A DNA stretch of 64,000 bases from Lachnospiraceae bacterium UBA7784 (GTDB taxonomy: Bacteria > Bacillota > Clostridia > Lachnospirales > Lachnospiraceae), in assembly GCA_002480925.1 (NCBI GenBank), contig DLDA01000017.1, positions 5,584 through 69,583 on the forward strand, given 5' to 3'. This document shows, in pieces, positions 29,516-31,674 of this stretch. The notes under the pieces are model-generated. The model did no database searches, was not told the origin of the DNA, and worked only from the letters and a program-made list of their open reading frames with translations. Position numbers and translations under genes: made by a program. Within the stretch, counting starts at the first letter, position 1. Every line of letters starts with the position of its first letter.

Positions 29516-29623
29516 GATTCCTGCTTTCTAGTCTGCTTTTTTAACCACGATATTATAACAGAATAATCACCTTTTAGGAAGTAGTAAGGGACATGTGATG
29601 ATAAAAGAAAGGAAGTGTATTTA

Positions 29624-30337
29624 ATGCGACTTGATAAATATCTTGCCTCGGCTACACAGATGACTAGAAGGGAGATAAAGAGAGCTCTTAAGAAAACGCC
29701 GGCCGTAGTGGACGGGGTAAAGGTATCTGCTCCAGAGACCCAGGTGGATGTCAGGTCAGTAGTCCGCTTTATGGGTGAAAAAATAGAATACCATGAATAT
29801 ACCTATATACTTATGAACAAGCCTGCCGGTCTGGTCTGTACAAACAGGGAGGGCAGGAATCCGACTGTTTTCTCTATTCTCGATGACAGGCTTAAGGGGA
29901 AGGAGCTCTTTACTGTCGGAAGGCTCGATAAGGATACGACAGGACTTCTTATAATAACGGATGACGGTGATCTGTCCCATAGGATGATGCATCCGAAAAA
30001 GCATGTGGAAAAGACCTACAGCCTGACCTGTGACAGACCTATCCCTCAGTCAGCTGTGGAGAGCTTCAAGGCGGGGATAGACATAGGAGATGATAAGCCG
30101 ACAAAGCCGGCTGATCTTGTGATTTCAGGGATTGACGAAAAAAGCGCCCTTCTTACTATCTCTGAGGGCAGATTTCACCAGGTAAAAAGGATGATGAAGG
30201 CAGTCGGCTGTGAGGTCATAGCGCTTAACAGATGCTCTGTCGGTGACTTTGACCTGAAGGATGGCCCCTCGGTCGGGGAATATCGTTTCTTCAACGAGAG
30301 AGAGCTTGAAATAGTGGACAAAATAAAGAATCAGTAA
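29624..30337 (+). CDS. RsuA-family rRNA pseudouridine synthase
   Basis: Modifies a uridine in ribosomal RNA, by family either 16S (RsuA) or 23S (RluB/RluE). An N-terminal S4 RNA-binding domain (LDKYLASATQMTRREIKRAL) precedes the catalytic domain with the Asp motif VGRLDKDTTGLLIITDDG. The ATG at 29624 has AAAGGAAG at eight bases; a GTG at 29615 would overlap the ribosome site. The 237-residue length is normal. It is followed by the DnaA-box region. Confidence 0.9.
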   Translation: MRLDKYLASATQMTRREIKRALKKTPAVVDGVKVSAPETQVDVRSVVRFMGEKIEYHEYTYILMNKPAGLVCTNREGRNPTVFSILDDRLKGKELFTVGRLDKDTTGLLIITDDGDLSHRMMHPKKHVEKTYSLTCDRPIPQSAVESFKAGIDIGDDKPTKPADLVISGIDEKSALLTISEGRFHQVKRMMKAVGCEVIALNRCSVGDFDLKDGPSVGEYRFFNERELEIVDKIKNQ

Positions 30338-30342
30338 AAAAC

Positions 30343-30709
30343 TGTGGATAAGCTTATCCACAATACAGATGATGGCCTGATATAAAAAGGTTATTAAACC
30401 GCGTTTTTATTGACTGTGATCCAGAGAAAATAGTTGGTTTATGAATAAACTATTTCACGGGGCGAATTATCCACATAATAAACGAGAAATGGCCGATCAC
30501 TTATCGACAGCTTTCCACAGGATTTTGTGGAAAAAAGTCCGCTATCTTAACTGATGAATGGTTTTTCAACGGCTTTATCCACTTTCTCCACATTTCAAGG
30601 GTGTATAGATATCGTTGATGCACGGATCACCCATTAAAACCTGCCGAATCTGGCCGTATTCATTATTTCTGGTTGGAAAAGCTGTGGAAAAACAGTGGAA
30701 AAATCCACT
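30343..30709. other. Cluster of about ten DnaA-box-like sites
   Basis: The intergenic region holds three perfect TTATCCACA boxes: 30343-30351 (-) and 30354-30362 (+), which form the palindrome TGTGGATAAGCTTATCCACA, and 30467-30475 (+). Near matches lie at 30501-30509, 30511-30519, 30526-30534 (-), 30575-30583, 30584-30592, 30683-30691 (-), 30694-30702 (-) and 30701-30709. It resembles an origin or a DnaA-titration cluster. dnaA and dnaN are not here, and gene orientation does not switch at this point, so a regulatory DnaA cluster is more likely than oriC (inference). Confidence 0.75.
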
Positions 30710-30737
30710 TGAAATCTTTCTCAAAATCCTGTATTAT
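30709..30737 (+). promoter_or_regulatory. Promoter for the acidic protein-tRNA-Leu-luxS genes
   Basis: TTGAAA (30709-30714), a 17-bp spacer and TATTAT (30732-30737). DnaA-like boxes end at its -35, so DnaA could influence it. The leader contains two short hairpins (GCTG/CAGC at 30744-30759, GGGAG/CTCCC at 30777-30796). Confidence 0.65.
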
Positions 30738-30819
30738 AAAGAAGCTGTTTTAAGGCAGCATGTAGTCCGGTGACTCGGGAGGCTTACAGGGCTCCCTGAT
30801 TATTATTGAAGGTAAGCAT

Positions 30820-31032
30820 ATGGCAAAGGATGAAGCAACCGTTAAAGAGGGTCAGGAGAGCAGTACTGAGGCAGAGATAAGAGAGTTCAGATCGCATCTC
30901 GGCATAGGAGACCATGATGACGAGACACCTCTGATCGGGAAGATGGAGCAGGCGCTCGATCGTTTCGCGGAGGTAGACAGCAAGGATATCCTTGATGCTC
31001 TGAATAGTCTTTCGGACGAGGACGACAGATAG
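30820..31032 (+). CDS. Small acidic protein of unknown function
   Basis: A 70-residue soluble protein rich in Asp and Glu (for example GIGDHDDETP and LSDEDDR at the end), with a predicted helical centre (GKMEQALDRFAEV) and no Cys. GAAGGT seven bases before ATG and the promoter upstream support translation. I do not recognise the family. It lies directly between the DnaA-box cluster and tRNA-Leu (four-base gap), so it is probably co-transcribed with the tRNA. Confidence 0.6.
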   Translation: MAKDEATVKEGQESSTEAEIREFRSHLGIGDHDDETPLIGKMEQALDRFAEVDSKDILDALNSLSDEDDR

Positions 31033-31036
31033 TCAG

Positions 31037-31116
31037 GCGGATATGGCGGAATTGGCAGACGCGCCAGATTTAGGTTCTGGTGGGAGACCGTGCAGGTTCA
31101 AGTCCTGTTATCCGCA
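31037..31116 (+). tRNA. tRNA-Leu (anticodon TAG)
   Basis: Acceptor GCGGATA/TATCCGC, discriminator A, anticodon loop TTTAGGT giving TAG, and an extended variable arm typical of class II tRNAs. Total 80 bases, CCA not encoded. Confidence 0.93.
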
Positions 31117-31197: not shown

Positions 31198-31674
31198 ATG
31201 GAGAAGATTACAAGCTTTACGATCAACCATCTGAAGCTGCTTCCTGGAGTCTATGTATCCAGAAAGGACAGCTTCGGCGATGCGGTGATCACCACATTTG
31301 ATCTTAGAATGACTGCTCCGAACAGGGAGCCTGTGATGAATACGGCTGAGATGCATACTATAGAGCATTTAGGCGCCACATTCCTAAGGAACCATAAGGA
31401 CTTTGGGGACCGGACTGTTTATTTCGGGCCTATGGGATGCAGGACAGGATTTTATATGCTGCTTGCCGGTGACTATGACTCTGAGGATATCCTTCCGCTT
31501 GTCATAGAGATGTTTGAATTCATCAGGGACTTCGACGGAGACGTACCGGGGGCTGCTCCCCGTGACTGCGGCAATTATCTGGATCAGAATCTGTCTATGG
31601 CGCATTATCTTGCAAAGAGGTATCTTAAAGTGCTTAAGGATGCGACGGAGGAGAACCTCCATTATCCGGAGTAG
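31198..31674 (+). CDS. luxS: S-ribosylhomocysteine lyase LuxS
   Basis: Cleaves S-ribosylhomocysteine to homocysteine and DPD, the precursor of autoinducer-2. The start at 31198 has GAAAGG six bases upstream and yields 158 residues, the family's usual length. Metal ligands His53 and His57 (HTIEH) and Cys124 (DCGN) are present, with catalytic Cys81 in GPMGCRTGFY. The next gene supplies its substrate, so together they form the LuxS branch of the activated methyl cycle. Confidence 0.95.
   Translation: MEKITSFTINHLKLLPGVYVSRKDSFGDAVITTFDLRMTAPNREPVMNTAEMHTIEHLGATFLRNHKDFGDRTVYFGPMGCRTGFYMLLAGDYDSEDILPLVIEMFEFIRDFDGDVPGAAPRDCGNYLDQNLSMAHYLAKRYLKVLKDATEENLHYPE

Follow-up and report, generated by a model that had tools for sequence, protein, structure and literature searches.

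A conserved array of DnaA boxes outside oriC in a Lachnospiraceae genus, a candidate locus for control of DnaA

Introduction

Why should a dense cluster of DnaA boxes stand in intergenic DNA with neither dnaA nor dnaN beside it? The question is raised by a 64,000-nucleotide stretch of Lachnospiraceae bacterium UBA7784 (GCA_002480925.1, contig DLDA01000017.1, positions 5,584–69,583), hereafter the window, in which an original prediction made from the sequence had noted such a cluster. A DnaA-titrating or DnaA-regulated locus was considered the simpler reading and a relocated or secondary origin the more surprising one. The assembly comprises 1.83 Mb in 54 contigs, and the contig that contains the window is 105 kb long. 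The genomes compared are designated by G-numbers, the present assembly being G000; G008, a relative from the same genus, has its array between the same neighbours.

In B. subtilis, joint deletion of six DnaA-box clusters leads to early initiation and single clusters matter little, according to the sections of two articles that concern them (PMC5295017, PMC13220808). Table 1 of PMC4447404, an article that covers DnaA arrays in vitro, lists 4–11 predicted boxes in 300 bp for those B. subtilis regions outside oriC that are strongest in vitro, and its section 8 describes activation of the sda promoter by DnaA, with several boxes contributing. A 2026 review states, in its part on B. subtilis, that the existence of regulators balancing DnaA-ADP and DnaA-ATP is not known there and that datA and DARS are absent (PMC13220808). 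Origin structure in clostridia is among the subjects of PMC7561715. A literature search of titles and the beginnings of abstracts, with most subscription journals outside its scope, returned no DnaA-box arrays outside oriC in Lachnospiraceae and none linked to hpf.

Results

The intergenic gap contains a dense cluster of DnaA boxes

The array lies between a pseudouridine synthase gene (29615..30337, + strand; Pfam PF00849; NCBIfam TIGR00093 above cut-off) and an ORF for a 70-residue acidic protein (30820..31032, + strand), as originally described; the gap, put at about 480 bp, is exactly 482 bp long (30338–30819). The acidic ORF has no Pfam or NCBIfam match and was recognized by eye in G008, G010, and G012, where its relatives sit just upstream of tRNA-Leu. 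It is followed by a tRNA-Leu gene with anticodon TAG (31037..31116, + strand; tRNA/Rfam search), the sole match in an Rfam search of the region, and by luxS (31198..31674, + strand; Pfam PF02664).

Three exact TTATCCACA boxes begin at 30343 (− strand), 30354 (+), and 30467 (+), and the first two form a 20-bp palindrome, TGTGGATAAGCTTATCCACA (30343..30362); in both respects the original prediction was accurate. Its count of about seven near matches in 370 bp was too generous for one-mismatch boxes, five of which occur between 30343 and 30691 (30501 +, 30526 −, 30575 +, 30584 +, and 30683 −); the further near matches, such as CTTTCCACA at 30511, carry two mismatches. The palindromic pair is at the same time a hairpin of 10 pairs (30341–30364) with T's behind it on the − strand, an arrangement that resembles a terminator.

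The gap contains eight boxes with at most one mismatch, compared with a mean of 0.17 and a maximum of 3 in 5000 dinucleotide shuffles of its sequence; exact boxes number three, against a shuffled maximum of one. Across the 105-kb contig, eight of the nine boxes found in 24 ORF-free gaps longer than 100 bp are in this one gap, so that, on this contig, the density exceeds that of other intergenic regions, a comparison that the original prediction had named as able to refute it. Genome-wide (1.83 Mb) there are 28 exact boxes and 546 that deviate at no more than one position; at the latter rate the Poisson chance of eight boxes in 359 bp is ∼4e-13, for an interval picked after the boxes were seen. 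The window as a whole has 34 boxes with at most one mismatch where 15 are expected. The box cluster is beyond chance, and dense boxes outside oriC are a feature that it has in common with clusters of the B. subtilis type.

The array is probably not a replication origin

All 21 five-kb bins of the 105-kb contig have positive GC skew, and coding length is mostly on the + strand on both sides of the array, which bears out the earlier impression that replication direction does not switch here. The skew analysis had G008 dnaA and G235 dnaA as positive controls. In G008, dnaA and the array are on separate contigs: skew is negative in 2 of 28 bins of the array contig, neither of them at the array, and on the dnaA contig both skew and gene direction flip at dnaA. 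The original prediction had proposed to locate the genome-wide GC-skew minimum; the skew switch is at dnaA in G008, and there is none on the 105-kb contig of the window. The G008 gene order, gyrA-gyrB-recF-dnaN-dnaA on one side and rnpA-yidC-jag-mnmE-mnmG on the other (names assigned by eye), is the usual one. A match in G235 was considered as a further non-origin array and rejected, since it proved to be the dnaA region of that genome.

A relocated or secondary chromosomal origin would account for the number and density of boxes, which are origin-like; the G008 array, with seven boxes of at most one mismatch in 400 bp, even exceeds the gap upstream of G008 dnaA and the dnaA end taken together. 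Against this stand the dnaA of G008, in standard order with its neighbours, and a lower A+T content, the best 60-bp segment reaching 0.70 in the array and, in the gaps at G008 dnaA, 0.82 and 0.80. The DnaA-trio pattern matched neither the array nor the dnaA controls and is thus uninformative. Of the features of an oriC, the locus has the box cluster, and its flanks lack dnaA-dnaN adjacency and a switch of skew or coding strand. Because skew does not switch at the array, the origin reading was rejected and is regarded as highly improbable.

The dnaA region seems to be missing from the assembly

Neither dnaA nor dnaN has a match of its own kind anywhere in the assembly, which extends beyond the flanks of the array the earlier remark that both genes are lacking there. 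A 12-kb G008 stretch that includes dnaA and is bounded by the end of gyrB and by rsmG (names assigned by eye) gave one 159-bp match in the assembly, located in a gyrB/parE-type gene for which curated models do not decide between gyrB and parE. The control, 12 kb taken from the G008 array contig, gave 11 matches on the window's contig in a separate blastn run. DnaA matches over the cut-off came from 11 of the 12 same-genus relatives: ten are whole, one is truncated at a contig edge, and G003 lacks a match. A genome biologically devoid of dnaA was accordingly rejected as an explanation, given the near-complete lack of the G008 dnaA region from the assembly and the presence of dnaA in 11 of 12 relatives. 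The region seems to be absent from the assembly and not from the organism, and the lack of dnaA consequently says nothing about the array. The assembly from which it is seemingly missing is rated 97.66% complete.

A core of five sites keeps near-fixed spacing

Comparison within the genus delimits a conserved core at 30501..30592 (+ strand), found in 12 of 13 same-genus genomes, the present one included. It comprises site B, TTATCGACA (30501..30509, +); site C, TTTTCCACA (30526..30534, −); site D, TTTTCAACG (30563..30571, +); site E, TTATCCACT (30575..30583, +); and site F, TTCTCCACA (30584..30592, +), which stands in tandem with E at 9 bp. Sites B, C, E, and F were located by box scan and spacing comparison, and site D by spacing comparison and alignment. 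Upstream of the core lies the exact box at 30467..30475 (+), and downstream of it a one-mismatch box, again TTTTCCACA (30683..30691, −), both from the box scan.

For the spacing measurement, site D was sought by pattern and the other sites were taken as the best matches in bounded stretches around it. In all 12 arrays the spacings are 25–26 for B-C, 36–38 for C-D, 12 for D-E, and 9 for E-F, varying by no more than 2 bp, and the core alignment agrees with this pattern-based placement. Pairwise identity averages 83% over the 45 columns that belong to sites and 51% over the 48 that belong to spacers; one column is a gap. In 1000 random draws of columns, the identity of the site columns, which were chosen with knowledge of the alignment, was never reached. 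Site D is TTNTCAACG in 12 of 12 arrays and is the most conserved element of the core, yet as a DnaA box it is non-consensus, with at least two mismatches. Two other sites are poor boxes in part of the genomes: E in 4 of 12 (3–4 mismatches) and C in 6 of 12 (2–3 mismatches).

The palindrome emphasized in the original prediction is not conserved in the genus. It is degenerate in G008, reduced to half in G010, and unrecognized in the remaining seven aligned arrays; like the palindrome, other elements outside the core are present in some relatives and missing in others. Judged from these alignments, the palindrome is the least conserved part of the array and the core at 30501–30592 the conserved part.

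The array is retained while its neighbours change

The original prediction had also suggested counting boxes at corresponding regions of relatives, and the core proved to be present in every genome of the genus except G007, an assembly of 430 contigs and 81% completeness with a single match at E 0.05. A sequence profile built from ten arrays was searched against 98 genomes. The training arrays scored 88.6–99.7 bits, the untrained G003 and G009 arrays 46.6 and 45.8 bits, and the best match in another genus 28.3 bits; some match at E ≤0.1, most of them weak, was found in 88 of the 98 genomes.

The flanking genes occur in at least five combinations within the genus, identified by Pfam for one example of each named kind and otherwise by eye. 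The pseudouridine synthase on the left and the acidic ORF-tRNA-Leu on the right are shared by the present genome, G008, and G010 (whose contig starts in the synthase tail). Varied left genes are paired with an 8-oxoguanine-glycosylase-type gene in G002, G011, G004, and G012, and an oligopeptide-binding protein gene with tRNA-Leu in G001 and G005, a group to which G006 belongs with its left side ending at the contig end. G009 has an opp-type ATPase gene and a small ORF on one side and a hybrid sensor kinase on the other; G003 has a kinase on the right that is 56% identical to that of G009, and a left gene without a name. The gene directly downstream can thus be the acidic ORF, the glycosylase-type gene, tRNA-Leu, or the sensor kinase. 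That the geometry is kept while the neighbours are exchanged is the main argument from sequence comparison, and suggests that the array itself is under selection.

A luxS gene was found in nine of 12 same-genus relatives, all nine with a box cluster upstream of tRNA-Leu-luxS at a distance of ∼90 bp to 6.6 kb. In 10 of 12 genomes, then, no more than 7 kb separates the array from tRNA-Leu-luxS downstream of it. In a named collection of 80 luxS loci with flanks of up to 8 kb, many shortened by contig ends, the best 400-bp cluster scored 6–11 at six loci assigned to same-genus relatives and no more than 4 at the other 74. The pseudouridine synthase was tried as a landmark and discarded, because among 30 loci, the present one apart, the cluster was beside it only in G008; luxS is the better landmark.

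A related pattern recurs in the family and the order

A second profile, built from 12 cores and searched in 299 family genomes, matched at E ≤1e-5 in 39 of them, the present genome included. The best match in another genus, at 48.9 bits, is in G099, upstream of a kinase 38–41% identical to the G003 and G009 kinases; the core therefore occurs beyond a single genus. Searched for with one mismatch allowed, the tandem TTATCCACNTTATCCACA was present in 292 of 392 genomes of the order, whereas the reversed control gave any match in 52 genomes. Whenever more than 40 genomes were scanned, the filters were stricter.

A set of 67 loci, chosen for matching a model or pattern and counting one place in G041 twice, was compared with reference proteins, one of which derives from a locus of the set. 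The D-E-F triplet was recognized by pattern in 41 of these loci, and an hpf relative (Pfam) lay within ∼1.5 kb in 30; the tandem pattern stood at dnaA/dnaN/rnpA in six and at dnaD-type genes in two. The start of hpf is 160–400 bp downstream of the triplet in the cases measured. The triplet upstream of hpf recurs in several genera and in another family of the order (L288:4745–4809, L289:5567–5584, L290:4958–4975). In G416, which belongs to that other family, the contig of 3.12 Mb starts at dnaA and has the hpf-linked array at 245.6 kb. In G001 (L284:4229–4317), G003 (L286:4943–4993), G006 (L285:6388–6471), and G005 (L219:4588–4680), a second D-E-F array stands with an NlpC/P60 gene on one side and, on the other, a PucR-type regulator and then ftsE-ftsX genes.

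The present genome has two matches to the tandem pattern, which we infer to be the array in the window and an array upstream of a dnaD-type operon on contig C25; with this assignment, no hpf- or nlpC-linked copy is seen in it. The C25 array (L002:6648–6745) has two exact boxes and a one-mismatch box between murC and the dnaD-type/helicase-loader-type operon, and similar box groups occur at the dnaD-type operon in G001, G012, and G020. Through boxes of this kind, DnaA may regulate its own helicase-loading partners.

Discussion

The array is most probably a cis-acting DnaA-binding control locus outside oriC, a reading to which we assign a probability of about 0.65. In its favour are a box density far above that of shuffled sequences and of the other gaps of the contig, homology and near-constant spacing in 12 genomes, the turnover of neighbours, and the lack of a skew switch, together with the precedent of the B. 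subtilis clusters. The comparative evidence thus favours the titrating or regulated locus that the original prediction preferred, though not its emphasis on the palindrome. DnaA would bind the array cooperatively, as an ordered complex whose arrangement is set by the near-fixed spacing of the core; the bound protein would lower or alter the DnaA available to oriC, and the altered supply would tune the start of replication, either by titration alone or also through a change in the nucleotide state of DnaA. In the latter respect the locus perhaps works like datA or DARS. G008 DnaA aligns along its length with the solved DnaA structure 8btg. Several observations weigh against a control locus: common descent accounts for some of the conservation, which was itself among the grounds for choosing the sites; E and C are poor boxes in 4 and 6 of the 12 genomes, respectively; and the linkage to tRNA-Leu-luxS in 10 of 12 genomes is not needed for an element independent of its neighbours.

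In the main rival reading, DnaA on the array would regulate the adjacent transcription unit (the acidic ORF, tRNA-Leu, and perhaps luxS), as it does at sda in B. subtilis. This rival is favoured by that linkage, by the frequent position of the triplet near hpf in other genera (30 of 67 loci), and by a promoter-like site, TTGAAA-17-TATTAT (30709..30737, + strand; promoter scan), 18 bp past the last box. However, the three promoter-like sites of the region are not clearly above the 1.5 ± 1.0 of shuffled sequences, making them weak evidence for a promoter, and the gene directly downstream differs within the genus. On balance a regulated promoter appears unlikely. A still less probable explanation holds that the sites serve another protein or are what remains of a mobile element that had inserted close to a tRNA gene. 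The most conserved site, D, is indeed not a consensus DnaA box, and the genes between the array and tRNA-Leu vary as they do at integration sites. Nevertheless, there is a strong excess of consensus DnaA boxes, dnaA/dnaN/rnpA loci share the tandem pattern in 6 of the 67 cases, TTATCAACG is among the boxes upstream of G008 dnaA, and a decaying remnant is not expected to keep its spacing.

Set beside known systems, the proposed control locus resembles the B. subtilis clusters in having DnaA boxes in intergenic DNA away from dnaA, and differs in its setting: none of the six top regions in the table of PMC4447404 is by hpf, luxS, or tRNA-Leu. E. coli datA is likewise a DnaA-site cluster outside oriC beside a tRNA operon; as described in the relevant part of PMC10950094, it needs IHF and sits downstream of its tRNA operon, whereas the array is upstream of tRNA-Leu. 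DARS1 and DARS2 of E. coli are also DnaA-site loci outside oriC and, in the account given in a section of PMC5295017, act on DnaA; they reactivate ADP-DnaA, which the array is not known to do. The sda promoter shares a box array upstream of a gene (PMC4447404, section 8), whereas the downstream gene of the array changes between relatives. Firmicutes origins have DnaA-box arrays too, and some are among the 67 loci with the same tandem pattern, whereas the array has no dnaA/dnaN neighbourhood and no skew switch and is less A+T-rich.

A broader proposal, possible though doubtful, is that the D-E-F triplet with its 12- and 9-bp steps and an upstream partner box is an ancient cis-acting DnaA regulator, the counterpart of datA/DARS in the clostridial order studied here. 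Such a regulator would often be placed upstream of hpf or between the NlpC/P60 gene and the PucR-type regulator-ftsE-ftsX genes, and the copy in this genus, near tRNA-Leu-luxS or a sensor kinase, would have kept its geometry.

What appears to be new here is a DnaA-box cluster outside oriC with conserved internal geometry, as judged by comparison among Lachnospiraceae arrays. As a conserved element the array appears well supported, and its role as a regulator is a candidate one. In the Firmicutes, where control of DnaA outside the origin is poorly known, the array offers defined sites B–F, among them the invariant but non-consensus D, as well as copies with natural variation, by which titration, DnaA remodelling, and promoter control would be separable in direct experiments.
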